The notes under the pieces: model-generated
The model's database searches: none
The model's input: only the letters and a program-made list of their open reading frames with translations
What the model was told of the DNA's origin: nothing
Shown: in pieces, positions 43,894-54,484 of the stretch
Layout: each line of letters begins with the position of its first letter
Numbering within the stretch: position 1 is the stretch's first letter
Translations under genes and position numbers: made by a program
Assembly: GCA_013298715.1 (NCBI GenBank)
Contig: JAAFIQ010000010.1
Span: 1 to 64,000 of the forward strand
Origin: Bacteroidota bacterium
GTDB taxonomy: Bacteria; Bacteroidota; Bacteroidia; B-17B0; Aurantibacillaceae
Direction: 5' to 3'
Length of the DNA: 64,000 bases

Positions 43894-45654
43894 ATGTTTT
43901 TAAAACGCTTTCACCTTCCTAACAAATATTTTCTATTAGCTTGTACTTTATTTTTAGTTAGTATATCTTACGCTCAACTTAAACAAGAGTTTTATGATAG
44001 CAAACAAACACAACTTAAAAGTGAGGTTGATTATTACAAAGGTATTCCACATGGCTTGGCTTTAGAGTTTTACAAAACGGGTAACGTTAGCAGAAAAGGT
44101 TATTATAATTACGGTAAAGAAGATAGCACGTGGACATTTTACTTTGAGGATGGCTCGGTAAAAGCCATAGAACGTTGGTTTAGAGGAAAAAAGGATGGAA
44201 GAAATACTTACTATTTTAAATCAGGAAAAATCGCGCAGATAACAAAATACCACAATGATTTAGCAGATAGTACTTGGACATCTTTTTATGAAAGCGGAAA
44301 TATAAAAAGCCAAGAGCCATTTATAAATGGAAAAAAGGAAGGAGAGTGGATTTATTTTCACGAAAACAAACAAATTGAAAGCAAAGGTGCTTTTGAAAAG
44401 GATAAACGAAATGGTTTAGTAGAAACTTTTTTTAAAGATGGAAGTTTGTTATCTTCTCAAAACTATTGTAATGGAAAACCTTGCGGCAAATGGATTGAGT
44501 ATTATAACAACAAGAAAATTAAATTTGAAAAAGAATACAAAGACACTATTTTGTATTTGAATAATTTGTGGGATACAAAAGGCCGACAACTTGTATCAAC
44601 CGGAAATGGCAGTATTACAGCCACCTACGACAATGGTGTAATTCGCGCTATGGGTAGTTATAAAAACGGTTTGCAAGATAGTACTTGGCGTTTTTTTCAT
44701 CCAAATGGAGAATTAGATTACGAAGCTAATTACAGGGATGGCTTGCTTAACGGCTACTATTCATCCTTCTTTGCAAACCATAATGTAAAAAGTGAAGGCA
44801 GTTTTTTAAGCAATAAAAAAGATGGTATTTGGAAATTTTATAATAAAGATGGTAAGCCAGAAATGATAGGAACGTTTAAAGAAAACGTAAAACAAGACAA
44901 ATGGACCTACTATTACAGCAATGGAAAATTAGAAAGCGAAGGCTATTTTTTGAATGATAAAAAAACAGCTACTTGGCAATTTTATTACAAAACTGGCGAA
45001 AAGTGGAGACAAGGGAATTATGAGCAAGATGTAAAAACGGGCACCTGGACCACTTGGTGGGAAAACGGAAAGAAATTGCAAGAGGGTGATTACAATGCTG
45101 GTAAGGCAAATGGCAAATGGACAAGTTGGTGCGAAAATGGCACAAAAAAAGATGAAGGATTTTACACGAATGAATTAATTACAGGTAATTGGCAAGGTTG
45201 GTATTGCAATGGTAAACTTAATTATTCTGGAAAGTATAACGATAAAGGAAAAAAAGCAGGTAAGTGGTTGTATTATTTCGAAAGTGGGCAACCTCGTGAG
45301 GTATGTAGTTATATTAACGGCGTTAAACATGGCAAGTACACTCAGTGGTTTGAGCGTGGAAATTTTATAGACACCAAAGGAAAATACAGAAAAGGTCATC
45401 AGCAAGGCAAGTGGACGTATTTTTACGAAACGGGAGGAATAAGCAAGGTACAGAATTTTAAAAAGGGGAAATTAAAAGGCAAATGTATTAGTTACTACAC
45501 AAACGCTAAAACACAAAGTGTTACAAGTTATAAATTAGTAAAAGAAAGGCGTAAAGGCAAGGTACAAAGTGTGCCTCATGGCGAATGGATTTTTTATGAT
45601 AAAAATGGTAAAGAAATGAGCCGAATTTCTTATAACAAAGGCGTAAAAAATTAG
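43894..45654 (+). CDS. MORN-type (YwqK) repeat protein
   Basis: 586 aa with a signal peptide (YFLLACTLFLVSISYA) and more than twenty tandem repeats of about 23 residues of the MORN_2 form: NGKKEGEWIYFHENKQIESKG, DGIWKFYNKDGKPEMIGTF, NGKWTSWCENGTKKDEGF. This family is annotated as YwqK in toxin-antitoxin clusters, but no toxin lies next to it. Probably an extracytoplasmic scaffold; function unknown. Confidence 0.88.
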   Translation: MFLKRFHLPNKYFLLACTLFLVSISYAQLKQEFYDSKQTQLKSEVDYYKGIPHGLALEFYKTGNVSRKGYYNYGKEDSTWTFYFEDGSVKAIERWFRGKKDGRNTYYFKSGKIAQITKYHNDLADSTWTSFYESGNIKSQEPFINGKKEGEWIYFHENKQIESKGAFEKDKRNGLVETFFKDGSLLSSQNYCNGKPCGKWIEYYNNKKIKFEKEYKDTILYLNNLWDTKGRQLVSTGNGSITATYDNGVIRAMGSYKNGLQDSTWRFFHPNGELDYEANYRDGLLNGYYSSFFANHNVKSEGSFLSNKKDGIWKFYNKDGKPEMIGTFKENVKQDKWTYYYSNGKLESEGYFLNDKKTATWQFYYKTGEKWRQGNYEQDVKTGTWTTWWENGKKLQEGDYNAGKANGKWTSWCENGTKKDEGFYTNELITGNWQGWYCNGKLNYSGKYNDKGKKAGKWLYYFESGQPREVCSYINGVKHGKYTQWFERGNFIDTKGKYRKGHQQGKWTYFYETGGISKVQNFKKGKLKGKCISYYTNAKTQSVTSYKLVKERRKGKVQSVPHGEWIFYDKNGKEMSRISYNKGVKN

Positions 45655-47442: not shown

Positions 47443-48258
47443 TTAATTTGATTTATAAAACATAAAGTGTTTTGTCATACTTACTTTAAATGCTTCTTTA
47501 CAAGATTTTGCTTTTTTGTTTTTTCGTTTCAAGGCACGTTTATCAAATTCTTTTCGAGTAAGTTTTACTTGCCCACTATATAATTTTAAACCCAAGCCCA
47601 TTGTCCACGAAAGAGCATTTACATATAAATTATATTGCGTTAATTGATAAACGCCATAAGCTAGAGAGCCTAGCAGAGCCATACTGGTTAAGCCTTTAAC
47701 GGGTTTACCTAAAATAATTAAGCCACTACCAGGTAATACCAATGCTGATGTGGCGTAAAGCGGTTTGCCTTTATTTTTTTGATGAAGGAGTTTATAAAAA
47801 CAATTAAGACAGGCTAAACTTGTATCGGCAGTTTTTAATTTGTAGAAATAATTTTTTGCTTGTAATGAATCGTAATTAATAAAGGTTAAATAGGCTAAAA
47901 AATTTGATTGAATACTTATACTATCAAAATTTAAGCGATAAAGATCTAAGTTTTTTTTAGCTAATGCGAAATTATTATTATCGGTGCAGAGTAAGGTATT
48001 ATTCCAATAATAATTTTTATTGTAATATTTTACATTTGCTCTTTCGAGGCGAAGGTAAGTTTTGTAAGCATCAACCAATAAATTCGTAGCTAAGCAATAA
48101 TTGTATTTTTTAAATAGTATTGAATCTTTAGAAGAATTTGATTTGGCATTAAAAAATAATTCTTCAAACAACAAAAGGCTATCGTTAGTTGCGGTTTGAC
48201 AAAAACAAACCCTGCTATTTAAAACTAAAATAATCGCTATAAAACGTGTTAGCCTCAT
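47443..48258 (-). CDS. Duplicated-module protein 3, copy A: secreted membrane-associated protein
   Basis: 271 aa with a signal peptide (TRFIAIILVLNSRVCFC). The first half is TPR-like helices (YKTYLRLERANVKYYNKNYYW). The second half is hydrophobic (ALVLPGSGLIILGKPVKGL; YGVYQLTQYNLYVNALSWTM). Its paralog at 51516-52328 shares NYDSLQAKNYF, CLNCFYKLL, and GKPVKGLTSM. Its start overlaps the preceding gene by 44 nt. Function unknown. Confidence 0.75.
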   Translation of the reverse strand: MRLTRFIAIILVLNSRVCFCQTATNDSLLLFEELFFNAKSNSSKDSILFKKYNYCLATNLLVDAYKTYLRLERANVKYYNKNYYWNNTLLCTDNNNFALAKKNLDLYRLNFDSISIQSNFLAYLTFINYDSLQAKNYFYKLKTADTSLACLNCFYKLLHQKNKGKPLYATSALVLPGSGLIILGKPVKGLTSMALLGSLAYGVYQLTQYNLYVNALSWTMGLGLKLYSGQVKLTRKEFDKRALKRKNKKAKSCKEAFKVSMTKHFMFYKSN

Positions 48259-49015
48259 GTAAATAAATTTTCTTTTTTTCTAAACGATTAATTTTTGCAT
48301 CGTTATAACTGCCATAAATATTTGAAATATAAAATACCGACCCAAAACCCAAAATAAAATAGGTGTAATTGGCTTTAAAGCCTAATTTCCTTATTGCCTC
48401 GTACGATTGTGAAGCATAAGCAAAATGTGCCAAAAAGTTAAGTAAAAACACCTTGGGCTTTCCTATATACCATTTGCCCAATCCTGGCACAAGCGCTGAT
48501 AACCCGGCGGCTACAAGTGGTTTTTTATTGTATGCTTTTTGTAAATCTTTATATGAATTAAAATACGAATCCATTAACAGGGGTTGTTTATTAGCTTTTT
48601 GATTAGCCCTCTCAAATGCTTCTTCTATTAACTTACTACAATTACAATTTGGGTTTTTGTTTAAAGTATCAAACCAAAAATAAGCTTGTTTACTATCCAA
48701 AGTACTTAACCAATACTTACTTAATTCGCAATTAATGAGCGAATCACTTAAGGCGATTTTTGAATTAGCTTTTAAAGAAAAATAAAGTGAATCGTTATTC
48801 TTTTGGCTTAGGTAAAAATCTTGAAATAAAAAAAACAAACTATCTGTATTGATTTCAGATTTATTCTTTTGCTGATTCAAATAAGTAAGATGTTCTCTAA
48901 CTAAGTTATTAGATTTTAAATGATAAATAAATTTTAAATTGAATTGAGCAATTGCCACAAAGCTCAAACAAAAAAAGAAAATAAACACACGTTTAGCGTT
49001 TGAGGTAATGTTCAT
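48215..49015 (-). CDS. Duplicated-module protein 2, copy A: DUF5683-like membrane protein
   Basis: 266 aa with a signal-like N-terminus (VFIFFFCLSFVAIA). The second half has the core VAAGLSALVPGLGKWYIGKPKV and ends in IYLHEANTFYSDYFSF, conserved in the paralog at 52285. DUF5683-type proteins have this PGLGxxYxGKxxK segment. Overlaps the YidD-like gene by 23 nt and the next gene by 44 nt, so all three are translationally coupled. Confidence 0.75.
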   Translation of the reverse strand: MNITSNAKRVFIFFFCLSFVAIAQFNLKFIYHLKSNNLVREHLTYLNQQKNKSEINTDSLFFLFQDFYLSQKNNDSLYFSLKANSKIALSDSLINCELSKYWLSTLDSKQAYFWFDTLNKNPNCNCSKLIEEAFERANQKANKQPLLMDSYFNSYKDLQKAYNKKPLVAAGLSALVPGLGKWYIGKPKVFLLNFLAHFAYASQSYEAIRKLGFKANYTYFILGFGSVFYISNIYGSYNDAKINRLEKKKIYLHEANTFYSDYFSFK

Positions 49016-49535
49016 TTTTTATAAGCGCGGTTGGTGTTAAAAAAATCGGATGTACCTCGTATTGAAGCGCTGGCATACACGCTAATATTTGATTGATGCC
49101 CATTAAAGCTCCTTTAATAAACCCATAATCGCGAATACATAATTTTGTAAATTCGCTGCAACTATGCTGATAGCTGCATGTTGCTTGAATTTGCTCAGAA
49201 ACAACATTTTGATAAATGAATAAAGCAGAAGATCCCAAATAAGCCAAAGGATTGTACTTGGATTTTGGTTTTAAAAATTTCCGAATTTTTTTTTCGCTAT
49301 TATCTGTGTAAAACAAACTATCTATAATTGGTAAATTCTGACTCCTCAACTTGAGTGAACCTGAAACCAGAAATACTACTATTAAAGTGTATTTTAGTCC
49401 AAAATTCTTTTTATATGCATTTTGTATAAAAGTAATTACACTTAAAAACAAATTAATTTTACTAACACAATCCTTAGCAATGAAATATTTGCTAGAGCAC
49501 TTTACATCTTTTAAAAGAAGTTCCATAACCATCAA
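48993..49535 (-). CDS. YidD-like (membrane protein insertion efficiency factor) with N-terminal extension, copy A
   Basis: The PF01809-type core is visible: IYQNVVSEQIQATCSYQHSC followed by SEFTKLCIRDYGFIKGALMG and ILACMP. YidD is normally a short cytoplasmic peptide near the insertase; here it is preceded by a hydrophobic stretch (YTLIVVFLVSGSLKLRSQ) like a signal peptide. The longest frame begins MMVMELLLKDVKC (ATG 49535). No ATG lies nearer the hydrophobic stretch, so the true start is uncertain. The paralog at 53045 also lacks an ATG there. Confidence 0.7.
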   Translation of the reverse strand: MMVMELLLKDVKCSSKYFIAKDCVSKINLFLSVITFIQNAYKKNFGLKYTLIVVFLVSGSLKLRSQNLPIIDSLFYTDNSEKKIRKFLKPKSKYNPLAYLGSSALFIYQNVVSEQIQATCSYQHSCSEFTKLCIRDYGFIKGALMGINQILACMPALQYEVHPIFLTPTALIKNEHYLKR

Positions 49536-49722
49536 ATTTAAGCAAATAGCTTGAATTTTTTAAGCCCTTTTAAAAAGAAAACTTTATAGCAAGATTAAGA
49601 TAATATGATTACTGATTCTAGATAACGATAGACATTTCATCCTCTTCAAATTAAGTATAAGACAACAATCTCAACCTTAGTAAAATTTGGTATATTAGTC
49701 AAAATTTTTAATCCTTTTTTGT

Positions 49723-51513
49723 ATGAAGAAATTATTTTTATTTCTGTTTTTAACAAAACTTGTTTTCTCAAATAAGTTAAGTTCACAAAACTTTAATTTA
49801 ACTTGGAGCGAAAAATACCGCTACAGTAAAAAAGTTGGCTATTATGATAAAATAGTTGGCGAAAACAGCTCTTTTCTATATGTGCGTTTAATTTCTAATA
49901 AAGGCATTCTTAAATCAAAAAAATTCAAAATTGCTTTAAAAGCTTTAGATAAAAATACGTTTAAAGAAAAATATACGCGCTATGTTTATGATAGAAAAGA
50001 AGAAAGTTCTAAAAAATATAAGGAACTTGATTATTTCACAACCTTGGTTGTAAACGATTTTATATATGATTTTTGGACGTTGAAAGAAAAGGACAGAGTA
50101 GAATTACATGTTGCTACATTTGATTCAAAATTAAAACCTATAAAAAAATTAACTAAAGTTTACACGTTGAACAAGGGCGAATCAAAAAAAGCAAGTAAGC
50201 CAGATTATTTTGTTATTTCAAATGATAAAACTAATAGTTACGCTTTAATTTGTGCTGAACCAAGCGCTGAACCTGGCGCAACTTACAAGTTAGAATACAA
50301 ATTAATAAATGCAGAGTTAACAGCCATCAATCAAGGTAAAGTTAATTTACCAGTAAGTTCTAAAGGTGAGAGCAGAAGAGATTATGGCAGCATTAAGGAT
50401 TTTGAATATGCCAAAAATGGAGTTTTATACTTACAAAACTCTATTTCTCCAACACGTGATGAATATAGGGAGTTAAAAAAAGACCCGCGATTGTATGAAA
50501 AATACTACACCATTTTATCTGCAATCGATATTCAAAGTGGTGCTATGAATTCTTATCCAATTAAATTTCCGGGCATGTATGCGCAATCTTGTAAAGTTAT
50601 TCAAACTAAAGATATGGTGGAGGTTATTGGTTTTTATACAGACTTGAGTAAAGACCCCAAAGGTAATGATAAGCATGGACTCTATTTTATAAATTTAGAC
50701 GCTGAAACGCTTAAAGAAAAAACAAAAAAAGTAAACACCTTTACAAAAAATCAATTAGATATATTGTTTGCAAAAGATAAAGAAGACAGAAAAGATAGGG
50801 CTGGGATTTTTGCTTCAAAAAAGAAAAAAGTATCAGAAGAAGAATCTTTACCATCAAACTATATAATTGAACAAGCATTATATACAGGCGATGGTGATAT
50901 AGTAATTTTTTCTAGCATTATGCGAAATTATACCGTTAGGTTATGTACAACATCAGGAACGGGTGCAAGCGCTACTACCAACTGTAGAGATGTTCCATAT
51001 TGCGACAAAAGTAACATTACAGCATTTAGATTAAGTCCTAATGGAGATATTAAATGGGTATCTAACTTAGATAGGTTTGTAACATATTCAGGTTGGTATA
51101 GATATGATTTAAAGGTTACTGAAAAAAACAATAAATTTTATGCAATTTATGGTTCTGCTTACCAGACTACTGCCGAAAAGAAAAACAGAAGAAGTAGAAA
51201 GTCAAGAAAACAGATGTCTGATAAATTCGAATATGGTGTTTTTGAAGCATCAAATGGCTCTTATAAAAAATTAGAAGAAACAATTAATCCAATAAATGCA
51301 AGCAAAAGCGAAAAAAAATACGTATCGGCGTTGGAGATTGAAGTTTATAATAATACATTTTATACTGGCTACTATAAACTTAAATACGATCCATTAAAAA
51401 CCGCCGGACTCTGCTTATTAAATTTAGTTTGTTTACCAACCGCTTTCCTTACATTTGGTTCAGATATAAATAGATATGGTGTTGGCTATATTGGTAAAAT
51501 TGTACCAAAATAA
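49723..51513 (+). CDS. Secreted protein, unknown, between two copies of the YidD module
   Basis: 596 aa with a signal peptide (KLFLFLFLTKLVFSNKLSS). Segments like NKLSSQNFNLTWSEKYRYSK and YGVFEASNGSYKKLEETINP suggest a beta-propeller-like extracytoplasmic protein. A C-terminal hydrophobic stretch (GLCLLNLVCLPTAFLTFG) is unusual. There is no Cys lipobox or sorting domain. The gene is on the plus strand between the two minus-strand modules, with no equivalent elsewhere in the window. Confidence 0.7.
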   Translation: MKKLFLFLFLTKLVFSNKLSSQNFNLTWSEKYRYSKKVGYYDKIVGENSSFLYVRLISNKGILKSKKFKIALKALDKNTFKEKYTRYVYDRKEESSKKYKELDYFTTLVVNDFIYDFWTLKEKDRVELHVATFDSKLKPIKKLTKVYTLNKGESKKASKPDYFVISNDKTNSYALICAEPSAEPGATYKLEYKLINAELTAINQGKVNLPVSSKGESRRDYGSIKDFEYAKNGVLYLQNSISPTRDEYRELKKDPRLYEKYYTILSAIDIQSGAMNSYPIKFPGMYAQSCKVIQTKDMVEVIGFYTDLSKDPKGNDKHGLYFINLDAETLKEKTKKVNTFTKNQLDILFAKDKEDRKDRAGIFASKKKKVSEEESLPSNYIIEQALYTGDGDIVIFSSIMRNYTVRLCTTSGTGASATTNCRDVPYCDKSNITAFRLSPNGDIKWVSNLDRFVTYSGWYRYDLKVTEKNNKFYAIYGSAYQTTAEKKNRRSRKSRKQMSDKFEYGVFEASNGSYKKLEETINPINASKSEKKYVSALEIEVYNNTFYTGYYKLKYDPLKTAGLCLLNLVCLPTAFLTFGSDINRYGVGYIGKIVPK

Positions 51514-51515
51514 AT

Positions 51516-52328
51516 TTATCGATAACTAATTTGGTGTTTAAACATGATGCTTTGATAGTTTGCTTTGCATTTTTTTTGAATTTTATTTTTTTGTTTTTGC
51601 TGTTTTTTATTAAACTCTTTTGAAGTAAGTTTTATTTGACCTAAATAAAATTTACTGCCAAAAGTAAAACCCCAGCTTATTGCATTTAAATACATGTTGT
51701 GGTGTAACAATTGATAAACGCCATATCCCAAACCGCCTAATAAACCCATACTTGTTAATCCTTTAATAGGTTTGCCAACTGCAATTAATCCACTTCCTGG
51801 CACAATACCCGAAGCTAACATATACCCACGCCCCTTTTTAGTTTTACTAGTTAATAATTTGTAAAAACAATCGAGGCAAGTCAAACTTGAATCCTGTAAA
51901 AGAATTTTTGAATAATAGTTTTTGGCAGCTAACGAATCTAAGTTTACATATACTAAATAACCTAATATATTTGATTGCAAACTTGTACTATCAAAATCAA
52001 GACGGTACGTATTAAAATTAGCCGCAGCACTCGATAAATTAAAATTATCCAAACACAATAAAGTTGAATTCCAAAAGTACTTTTTGTTATGTGGCTTAAA
52101 ATAATTTTTTTCTAACCGCAAATAACTTTGGTAAGCTGTTTTATTTTTATTAATCCGGAGAGCATAATTAAGCTTTTGGAATAAAATAGAATCTTTTTCG
52201 TTTCTAGAATTACTTGAAAAAATTTGTTGTTCGAATAAAAGCAAACTATCTTTTTGATAAGCGCTTTGACTCAAACATTGCAATCTAATTAAAACTAAAA
52301 TAATCGCTATAAAAAACGTTTGCTTCAT
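51516..52328 (-). CDS. Duplicated-module protein 3, copy B
   Basis: 270 aa, paralog of 47443-48258, with a signal peptide (QTFFIAIILVLIRLQCLS). The two share a TPR-like first half (YQSYLRLEKNYFKPHNKKYF) and the second-half core SGIVPGSGLIAVGKPIKGL. Overlaps the upstream gene by 44 nt, as copy A does. Its stop lies 2 bp from the stop of the plus-strand 596-aa gene. Confidence 0.75.
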   Translation of the reverse strand: MKQTFFIAIILVLIRLQCLSQSAYQKDSLLLFEQQIFSSNSRNEKDSILFQKLNYALRINKNKTAYQSYLRLEKNYFKPHNKKYFWNSTLLCLDNFNLSSAAANFNTYRLDFDSTSLQSNILGYLVYVNLDSLAAKNYYSKILLQDSSLTCLDCFYKLLTSKTKKGRGYMLASGIVPGSGLIAVGKPIKGLTSMGLLGGLGYGVYQLLHHNMYLNAISWGFTFGSKFYLGQIKLTSKEFNKKQQKQKNKIQKKCKANYQSIMFKHQISYR

Positions 52329-53067
52329 GTAAATAAATATGTTTTTTTTCTTTTTTCAAAATTTTCGTATCATTATAACTACCATAAATGTTAGATAAAT
52401 AAAAAATACTTCCAAAACTCGCCATAAAAATAGTGTAAGCATTTCTCCATCCCACTTTTCGTCCAGACTCGAATGTTTGAAGAAAATAAGTGCTTATACC
52501 AATAAAATTTATTAAAAAAACTTTTGGTTTTCCTATGTACCATTTACCTAACCCAGGCACAATAGCTGAAAGTGTTGCCGCAACCAACGGTTTTTTGTTG
52601 TGCGCTTTTTTGTATTGATTGTATGAATCAAAATATGAATCCATTTTTGCACTTTCCTTACTTATCTGCTTTGTTCTGTTTATTGAAAACAAAATCTCAT
52701 TATCGCAAACACATTTAGGTTTTATCAATATACTATCAAACCAAACCTGAAAATTTTTATTCTCATCATGTTTCAACCAAAATTTATTTATTTCGCAAGT
52801 AATTAAAGTATCGTTTAATGTTAGCGAATTTCTAGTTTTTAACAGTTTAATTAAAGAGTCTGGTTGATTAGTAATCATAAAATAATCTGTTCGTAGAAAA
52901 CTAATACTATCTAAAGAAGTATTTATAGAATTTATATAACTATAATACTCTGAACTTAGATTGTTTTGTTTTAAATACTTAGTAAATTGTAGGTTTATTT
53001 GTGCAGGCAAAAAATTAAAACAACCCAACAACAACATAACTATATTACTTTTTAAGATAGTGTTCAT
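52285..53067 (-). CDS. Duplicated-module protein 2, copy B: DUF5683-like membrane protein
   Basis: 260 aa, paralog of 48215-49015, with the same core LSAIVPGLGKWYIGKPKVF and the same C-terminus IYLHEANVFYSDYFSF. The signal sequence is shorter (IVMLLLGCFNFLPA). Overlaps of 23 nt (upstream) and 44 nt (downstream) equal those of copy A. Confidence 0.75.
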   Translation of the reverse strand: MNTILKSNIVMLLLGCFNFLPAQINLQFTKYLKQNNLSSEYYSYINSINTSLDSISFLRTDYFMITNQPDSLIKLLKTRNSLTLNDTLITCEINKFWLKHDENKNFQVWFDSILIKPKCVCDNEILFSINRTKQISKESAKMDSYFDSYNQYKKAHNKKPLVAATLSAIVPGLGKWYIGKPKVFLINFIGISTYFLQTFESGRKVGWRNAYTIFMASFGSIFYLSNIYGSYNDTKILKKEKKHIYLHEANVFYSDYFSFN

Positions 53068-53449
53068 TAATAATTAAATCATTATTTGTTAAGTATAGCG
53101 TATGTGTTTGGAACTTTAAAGAGGGAAGACAACTAAGTAATTGATTTAAACCTATAAACGTTCCTTTTAAAAAGCCGTAATCATGTATGGCTAGTTTGGT
53201 AAACTCACTACAGCTTTTTTGATACGTACACTGTGCTTGTATTTGCTCAGAAACTACGTTTTGATAAATAAATAAGGCTGCTGTGCTTAAATATCCTATT
53301 GGATTATATTTATTTTTTGGTGTTACAAAAGGACGCGACTTTACTTCTGCTTCACTCGAAAATAAACTATCCAAAAAAGTCGTGTTTTGAGCATTTAATT
53401 TTTGGGCGAAACCAACAATCAAAATAAATATGTAAAGTAAATTTTTAAT
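53045..53449 (-). CDS. YidD-like, copy B, with possible ATT start
   Basis: YidD-type core (IYQNVVSEQIQAQCTYQKSC, then SEFTKLAIHDYGFLKGTFIG). The conventional start would be the TTG at 53422 (MIVGFAQKLNAQ), but this leaves too short a signal peptide. Starting from ATT at 53449 gives KNLLYIFILIVGFAQKLNAQ, a proper signal-like N-terminus. The stop of the radical-SAM gene lies in the same frame just upstream, which limits further extension. Paralog of 48993-49535. Confidence 0.7.
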   Translation of the reverse strand: MKNLLYIFILIVGFAQKLNAQNTTFLDSLFSSEAEVKSRPFVTPKNKYNPIGYLSTAALFIYQNVVSEQIQAQCTYQKSCSEFTKLAIHDYGFLKGTFIGLNQLLSCLPSLKFQTHTLYLTNNDLIINEHYLKK

Positions 53450-53470
53450 ACTGTTTTTAAAGAAGTGTAA

Positions 53471-54484
53471 TTAATTAGCCCATACTTTTGTTCCTTCAGT
53501 ACAATTGGTGCAAATATCAATTTTCTTTCGGTTGGTTAAAATTAAGTTTCTAAACTTATTATATTCTTCTGAAAACCAAATTTCTTTAAACGAATTGTTT
53601 TTTAAATTTCCTAAGGTGTATTTGGCGTCTTTATCAAAACAACATGGCACAATTTTTCCATCCCAAGTAATTACGCATCCCTGCCACATCCGCCAACACT
53701 CGTTTAATAATTTATTTTTAATTTGATAAACACCATTTACCAATTTGTATCTCGAATAGGTTTGATTTGTAGGTATTAAATGTTCGCTCGTTTCAAAATC
53801 GTAAATTTGTGCTGTTTTAATTACCAATTTATCCACGCTAATATCTTTTGCCATTTTTTTTATGGCCGCAATTTCATGTTCGTTGTTTTTAAAAACAACA
53901 AATTGCCAAACTACATACGGACTTTTGCTTTTCAAATCTTTTTTGGCATTCAAAATTGCTTTTGTACCTGCTAAAACTTTCTCAATACTACCGCCTACCC
54001 TATAATTCTCATACGTTTGCTGCGATGCGCCATCAATGCTTATAATTAACTTGTCTAATTTACTATCTACAATTGCTTTTGCAACTTCTACATTAATATA
54101 ATGAGCATTAGTACTTGTAATTGTATATATATTATGTCCGTTTGCAATTTTTACCAATTTTAAAAAATTAGGGTTTAAAAAGGGTTCTCCTTGAAAATAG
54201 AACAAAATATTGTGCAAATGCTTTTTAAACGATGAAATATAGGTTTCAAAAAATAAAGGGTCTAACATACCTATATCCCTTGTAAACGAGCGTAAGCCGC
54301 TTGGGCACTGAGGGCAACGCAAATTGCAACTAGTAGTCGGTTCTATACTAATTGAAAAAGGCATTGCGCTTACAATTGCTTTTTGCTTTAACTTAGAGAT
54401 ACGAAAACTATAAACCAATTTAAGGTAATTTATTACTTTAATAAGGGTTAATTTTTTGAGTATACCAGCGTAATAATGAAACAT
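53471..54484 (-). CDS. Radical SAM/SPASM protein
   Basis: 337 aa. The CX3CX2C motif is EPTTSCNLRCPQCPSG, and a C-terminal SPASM domain with CVITWDGKIVPCCFDKDA and CTNCTEG binds further clusters. SPASM enzymes modify peptides or proteins. The first 40 residues (LTLIKVINYLKLVYSFRIS) are basic and hydrophobic. 48 bp upstream of the YidD-like copy B in the same direction, so it might belong to that module; the copy A module has no such partner. Confidence 0.9.
   Translation of the reverse strand: MFHYYAGILKKLTLIKVINYLKLVYSFRISKLKQKAIVSAMPFSISIEPTTSCNLRCPQCPSGLRSFTRDIGMLDPLFFETYISSFKKHLHNILFYFQGEPFLNPNFLKLVKIANGHNIYTITSTNAHYINVEVAKAIVDSKLDKLIISIDGASQQTYENYRVGGSIEKVLAGTKAILNAKKDLKSKSPYVVWQFVVFKNNEHEIAAIKKMAKDISVDKLVIKTAQIYDFETSEHLIPTNQTYSRYKLVNGVYQIKNKLLNECWRMWQGCVITWDGKIVPCCFDKDAKYTLGNLKNNSFKEIWFSEEYNKFRNLILTNRKKIDICTNCTEGTKVWAN

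Follow-up and report, generated by a model that had tools for sequence, protein, structure and literature searches.

YidD is a small helper of inner-membrane insertion, and in Escherichia coli its site of action is the inner membrane, where it serves clients of Sec/YidC. The canonical protein is short and carries no export signal. A table in PMC8082313 lists it as a putative insertion factor that interacts with SecYEG. In Bacteroidota, LolA1-3 and LolB have been described (PMC11885536, PMC13103446), and a passage of PMC3861447 gives the function of the TM2 domain as unknown. Here, we analyzed a 64,000-nucleotide stretch of the genome of a Bacteroidota bacterium (contig JAAFIQ010000010.1, positions 1 to 64,000; hereafter the window), in which a module of three genes, Y, D and T, occurs twice around a gene that we call c37. 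Y codes for an exported-type YidD, D for a protein with a TPR-like region and one or more C-terminal helical hairpins, and T for a paralogue of D. Related modules are often accompanied by c2, which codes for a LolA-like protein, and by a small exported-type protein, either the TM2 protein c4 or a hairpin protein of another family, c3. That Y, D and T make up one functional unit, which usually includes c2 and an exported hairpin protein of its own, is well supported computationally, much better than the mechanism of insertion discussed below. The module is widespread and, as far as the open-access literature goes, apparently undescribed. No paper on such a module was found in the accessible portions of the literature on YidD, TM2, LolA and Bacteroidota, which is no proof of absence, and neither YidD nor TM2 is mentioned by name in the main texts of PMC11885536 and PMC13103446. 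Several parts have known folds, and what is new is the system as a whole. The conserved operon, in which an exported YidD is joined by TPR-hairpin scaffolds, a LolA-like carrier and dedicated exported hairpin proteins, suggests an envelope pathway absent from the open-access papers searched.

To determine the distribution of the module, we built a profile from both window D proteins and searched 247 genomes of the phylum with it, and 25 genomes were matched, the window genome being one of them. At the remaining 24 loci, initial crude profiles recovered Y throughout but T at 18 only. Better profiles, partly built from the same 24 loci that they score, detected Y in 24, D in 24 and T in 23, and 23 loci showed the gene order Y-D-T. 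The lone exception (L012) had Y-D, and no T was found in its 3-kb stretch. A scan of genome_contigs (84,980 species) returned 327 relatives. Among the best 80 of these 327, Y was present in 78, D in 80, T in 79, c2 in 70 and c4 (at least 80 bits) in 60 before filtering for gene overlaps; after the filter, Y and D were each present in 77 and c3 in 3. Hosts among these 80 included Runella, Flectobacillus, Arcicella, Spirosoma, Filimonas, Ancylomarina, Anaerophaga and metagenome-assembled genomes (MAGs) of Balneolales. With cultured hosts such as Runella, Flectobacillus, Spirosoma and Arcicella, YidD function becomes testable away from YidC. Records labelled Williamsia sp. (MAG) and Candidatus Cloacimonadota (MAG) also carry the module (L119 and L168) and are possibly mis-binned.

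The linkage was also measured from the side of Y. In a class sample of 395 genomes, the exported-Y profile gave 95 strong places (above 81 bits), 85 of which lay within 2.5 kb of a D or T match; the lines for strong Y, for D (at least 60 bits) and for c4 (95 bits, below) were chosen after the lists had been inspected. The association of an exported-like YidD with envelope proteins, proposed in an earlier note on this DNA from the window sequence, is found well outside the window and runs through the whole phylum. The outcome that this note named as refuting its proposal, a lack of linkage elsewhere, is contradicted by the 85 linked Y places. Among the ten unlinked Y places, four are in genomes that keep D without Y elsewhere (G575, G540, G437, G332) and four in genomes with D on another contig (G551, G389, G314, G344). 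In G575 and G540, the module is split, with the LolA-like gene, Y and T together and D elsewhere (L198, L199 versus L200, L085). We counted this retention of separated parts as evidence for one functional unit.

Both window Y proteins belong to YidD, as they pass the curated cut-offs of PF01809 (27 bits; scores in Table 1) and TIGR00278 (49.9 bits for Y1 and 46.4 for Y2, cut-off 40). The core motif C-x5-C was present in 111/111 module Y proteins. Unlike canonical YidD, module Y has a hydrophobic signal-like N-terminus (107/114, followed by [ASG]Q in 99, as scored by a simple script rather than a trained predictor) and a conserved operon with D and T. A canonical YidD of 70 amino acids is encoded separately on another contig of the window genome. 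A search of the PDB with the Y profile gave two chains, with E-values of 0.006 (rat RAP) and 0.27, neither of which was credible.

D and T are paralogous, with the T profile matching 128/130 D proteins and the D profile 120/125 T proteins. The window D and T proteins had no Pfam match above cut-off. D had been described as DUF5683-like, and only a distant resemblance stood: relatives of D and T have a PG-x-G-K-x-Y-x-G hairpin weakly resembling that of DUF5683 (PF18935), which matched 4/72 D proteins at E≤0.01, whereas none of the window D or T proteins matched it at E≤1 in the Pfam scan. TM2 (PF05154) matched 9/72 D proteins at E≤0.01 and none of the window D and T proteins at E≤1. The AlphaFold2 model of D2 (mean pLDDT 80.9) comprises helical repeats over residues 26-132 approximately, poorly defined and with low pLDDT over residues 81-140, followed by confident helices over residues 161-230 (pLDDT about 98). 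Using VIA-align, the N-terminal half gave generic TPR matches (best Z of 9.2 over 78 residues), and the part beyond it matched helix bundles. The best Foldseek match of D in the PDB had an E-value of only 0.47; no known fold was assigned on this basis, and D was not taken as a new fold either. The best 19-residue Kyte-Doolittle hydrophobicity of the hairpins had a median of 1.38 for D and 1.46 for T, and reached 1.23 and 1.25 in the window D proteins and 1.46 and 1.30 in the window T proteins.

To relate the modules to their partner genes, we grouped 114 operons in a tree made by a quick method, with long branches flagged, into type I (21 operons), type III (5 operons, the window type) and type II (the remaining 88). 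With c2, c3 and c4 profiles built from loci inside the counted set, c2 was found upstream of 15/21 type I, 74/88 type II and 0/5 type III modules, and c3 upstream on the same strand of 13/21 type I modules. The nearest partner within 2.5 kb of type II modules was c4 in 65, c3 in 1 and neither in 22, while for type I modules it was c3 in 10, c4 in 4 and neither in 7. All four type I modules with c4 nearest face a second module in the same locus. Module type and partner are therefore paired, c3 with type I and c4 with type II (Fisher, 6e-9, uncorrected for shared ancestry). Type I and type II modules also occur side by side, convergent or divergent (L061, L062, L144, L181, L063/L152, L064), and most such modules have a LolA-like gene and a small exported protein to themselves.

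The c2 proteins of these related modules are predicted to have the LolA fold. Their comparison with the PDB was weak by sequence alone, and we therefore used a predicted model (pLDDT 95.2), for which the best Foldseek match was Pseudomonas aeruginosa LolA (E-value of 2.4e-12), with a TM-score of 0.60 to Porphyromonas gingivalis LolB. Three c2 proteins scanned singly scored 24.5 bits, 16 bits and no match against the LolA_like cut-off of 30 bits, and PF17131 matched 20/62 c2 proteins at E≤0.01 (best 7e-7). In spite of the shared predicted fold, c2 differs from the LolA/LolB superfamily by its low identity (6-17% among the 50 matches listed) and its operon with YidD.

The c4 protein of L060 exceeds the TM2 cut-off (PF05154, 40.2 bits versus 27.9), but module-linked c4 proteins differ from other TM2 proteins by a signal-like start, a Y-x-I-D-D-like N-terminal motif (47/60) and an FFMW-like end (56/60). 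The N-terminal motif, which was defined after the sequences had been inspected, was also present in 8/16 c3 proteins and in 0/208 other neighbors. While TM2-type matches (E≤1e-5) occurred in 207 of the 395 class genomes, c4 at 95 bits or more was found in 25, all of them within the 83 genomes with D at 60 bits or more. Among c4-carrying genomes outside the profile set, 12/12 had D (P 6e-10, with no phylogenetic correction). The low-scoring TM2 proteins of G317 and of the window genome, both read, are without the N-terminal motif. Eight c4 places in seven genomes were on contigs other than that of the module, and the stretches read there, about 4 kb on each side, contained no module gene. The transmembrane segments of c4 are clear (median best 19-residue Kyte-Doolittle value of 2.26), and its mean charge is +1.4 in the loop, -5.2 in the N-terminal region and -0.5 in the last 18 residues. 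These values fit the positive-inside rule, so both marked ends should face the periplasm, a predicted topology compatible with Sec-exported membrane proteins.

The module in the window belongs to type III, a reduced form, and its two copies flank a partner of their own, c37. The type III clade (support 100) contains both window copies, L080 (G448), the second copy of L074 (G491) and L082 (G549). Copy 2 is sister to L080 (support 92), and a radical SAM gene lies upstream of Y in both. The earlier note had correctly seen the trio of genes; the LolA-like and TM2 partners of most related modules were not found with the window copies, near which there is no c2, c3 or c4 gene. It had also taken the gene between the copies as unrelated, which our genus sample contradicts. 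Among 40 genomes, D was present in 20 (at least 90 bits), c2 in 7, window-type T (profile A2, E≤1e-10, placed by tree in four genomes) in 10 and c37 in 10. Both c37 and window-type T were present in 9 genomes (P 3.6e-7), and in 8 of these 9 c37 abuts T convergently (the window genome G000, G599, G600, G491, G549, G623, G618, G606), the two being on different contigs in G605. G448 had a window-type T without c37, and G622 a more distant c37 (30% identity) without window-type T. Since 9 of the 10 genomes with window-type T have c37, with 8 abutting, we consider c37 a partner of this type rather than a bystander. In the window c37, a hydrophobic stretch begins at residue 562, and 9/10 of the family have a short segment of this kind close to the C-terminus; its hydrophobicity (1.56-2.27 in these 9/10) is little above the median of 1.45 for 121 neighbors with hydrophobic starts. 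As for another cargo in the window genome, the sole TM2 protein over threshold (74 bits, on G000:C43) lacks the N-terminal motif and was rejected.

The six reading frames of the two copies are present as first reported (Table 1), except for the Y gene starts, and in both copies Y and D overlap by exactly 23 nt and D and T by exactly 44 nt. The two copies share 57% identity for Y (77/134), 51% for D (132/258) and 54% for T (145/269), with E-values of 5e-54 to 1e-100, indicating an old duplication rather than chance resemblance. The frames of the Y genes stand, but their start codons are unclear. For Y2, the first listed standard start in the region 53380-53475 is a TTG at 53422, so either ATT or TTG is required. 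For Y1, no in-frame ATG lies right before the hydrophobic stretch (49330-49560), and the start would be more distant.

Table 1. Coordinates and supporting evidence for the two module copies and adjacent genes in the window.
Feature	Coordinates	Strand	Evidence
Y1 (copy 1), YidD core preceded by a hydrophobic, signal-like stretch; uncertain start codon	48993..49535	-	PF01809 44.7 bits; C-x5-C kept
D1, TPR-like region with C-terminal helical hairpins, copy 1	48215..49015	-	D profile 180.8 bits (profile includes D1)
T1, D paralogue, copy 1	47443..48258	-	Profile and sequence comparison
Y2 (copy 2), YidD core preceded by a signal-like stretch; start at 53449 is ATT	53045..53449	-	PF01809 45.0 bits
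D2, copy 2, structure predicted	52285..53067	-	AlphaFold2 model; N-terminal half aligns with TPR folds
T2, copy 2	51516..52328	-	Sequence comparison with T1
c37, 596 amino acids, signal-like start and short C-terminal hydrophobic segment, convergent with T2	49723..51513	+	Co-occurrence in the genus
Radical SAM/SPASM gene, upstream of copy 2	53471..54484	-	Similar gene precedes Y in L080

With something short of even confidence, we propose from the sequences and models that the module could work from the periplasmic side to help exported proteins with a hydrophobic segment to insert or assemble. Y would cross the inner membrane through a Sec-type signal. D and T, as putative signal-peptide proteins, would expose periplasmic TPR-like regions and weakly hydrophobic hairpins related to the TM2/DUF5683 type, presumably in a complex with Y, and in most lineages a LolA-like hydrophobic-groove carrier would join them. 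The candidate clients are c3 for type I, the TM2 protein c4 for type II and c37 for the window type. The suggestion of a new export or anchoring system holds for the exported-like Y and its link to envelope proteins, while exporting or anchoring as such remains putative. A more ambitious version may also be imagined, in which the exported YidD would act with both TPR-hairpin scaffolds and the LolA-like carrier as a new, phylum-wide pathway for sorting and insertion from the periplasmic side. Exported proteins would be recognized by either a hydrophobic segment or a common N-terminal motif (Y/F-x-I-D-D/E...V...F) and placed in the envelope, and each of the three module types would have its own client class. 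We regard this version as unlikely.

Several observations weigh against the periplasmic-side proposal. Because the E. coli protein acts at the inner membrane, export may have cost Y that function, and the hairpins of D and T are marginally hydrophobic, which makes their insertion into the membrane uncertain. The linkage has gaps: a strong Y is missing within 2.5 kb of 15 of the 104 D places, two of the unlinked Y places are in genomes without a strong D (G452, G280), and neither c3 nor c4 lies within 2.5 kb of the 7 type I and 22 type II modules mentioned above or of any of the five type III modules. With the c4 line lowered to 86 bits, G317, G386 and G342 enter without a D of at least 60 bits, and the co-occurrence falls to 25/28. 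In the window genome, the c2 profile had no match, and a search with the N-terminal region of c3 and c4 returned nothing but generic signal peptides; c37 is the one candidate client left there, and common descent within a single genus may be all that ties it to the module.

A possible, though doubtful, alternative is that Y works in cis, inserting the hairpin proteins of its own module (D, T and the TM2 protein), and that the resulting complex has some other task, for example transport or the sensing of envelope stress. D, T and c4 are all of the hairpin type and encoded near Y, and the cross-matches of D and T as well as the TM2 matches of some D proteins would fit such a set of related subunits. 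The c4 genes on module-free contigs of seven genomes speak against it, albeit such places are expected for clients and subunits alike, and so does c37, a large secreted-type protein that is no obvious subunit. Alternatively, the module could be a dedicated Lol-like route in which the LolA-like protein carries lipid or lipidated cargo to the outer membrane after loading by D, T and the TM2 protein. This is quite unlikely in our judgment, even though c2 has a predicted LolA/LolB fold and lies upstream of most type I and type II modules, and a passage of PMC11885536 proposes a specialized LolA/LolB in a flexirubin locus. No lipoprotein was consistently linked among the neighbor clusters, where no search was aimed at lipoproteins, and none of the five type III modules has c2 upstream.

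For the window itself, the two copies could be remnants of a full module that are in decay and no longer functional. They lack c2, c3 and c4 nearby, a search of the genome gave no fitting copy either, both Y genes are without a clear ATG start, and their branch is long. We nevertheless find decay improbable, as all six frames are open, the overlaps and core motifs are kept at 51-57% identity, and window-type T is kept in 10/40 genus genomes, 9 of them with c37. Least probable is a module for antagonism or peptide export with the small exported hairpin proteins as effectors. Such proteins are small, variable and sometimes multiple beside a patchy accessory module, but TM2 is a general domain, no immunity-like gene was noticed (no search was aimed at such genes), and PADLOC matched none of the module proteins given to it. 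This set consisted of D1, D2, T1, T2, Y2, c37, one c2, one c4 and one c3, with Y1 left out, and a defense system was rejected on the same result.

Other genes near the modules were also inspected. The radical SAM gene is probably a neighbor of copy 2 and not part of the module. It was under the cut-off of the 25 NCBIfam models listed (best W_rSAM_matur, 117 bits versus 380) and matched pVip (viperin) of PADLOC with 47.4 bits. Beside modules or lone D genes without c3 or c4, we observed a family of 530-559 amino acids, c16, with a Cys-rich segment in some members (L073, L124, L092, L069, L085), which abuts modules in 3/5 cases. Comparison of c16 with c37 by hhalign gave a probability of 8.7%, and we retain c16 as a lead. 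Elsewhere in the window, a protein of 586 amino acids (43894-45654) begins with a signal-like stretch and is built of many short YxxGxxxxxGxW-type repeats, which we take to be MORN-like.

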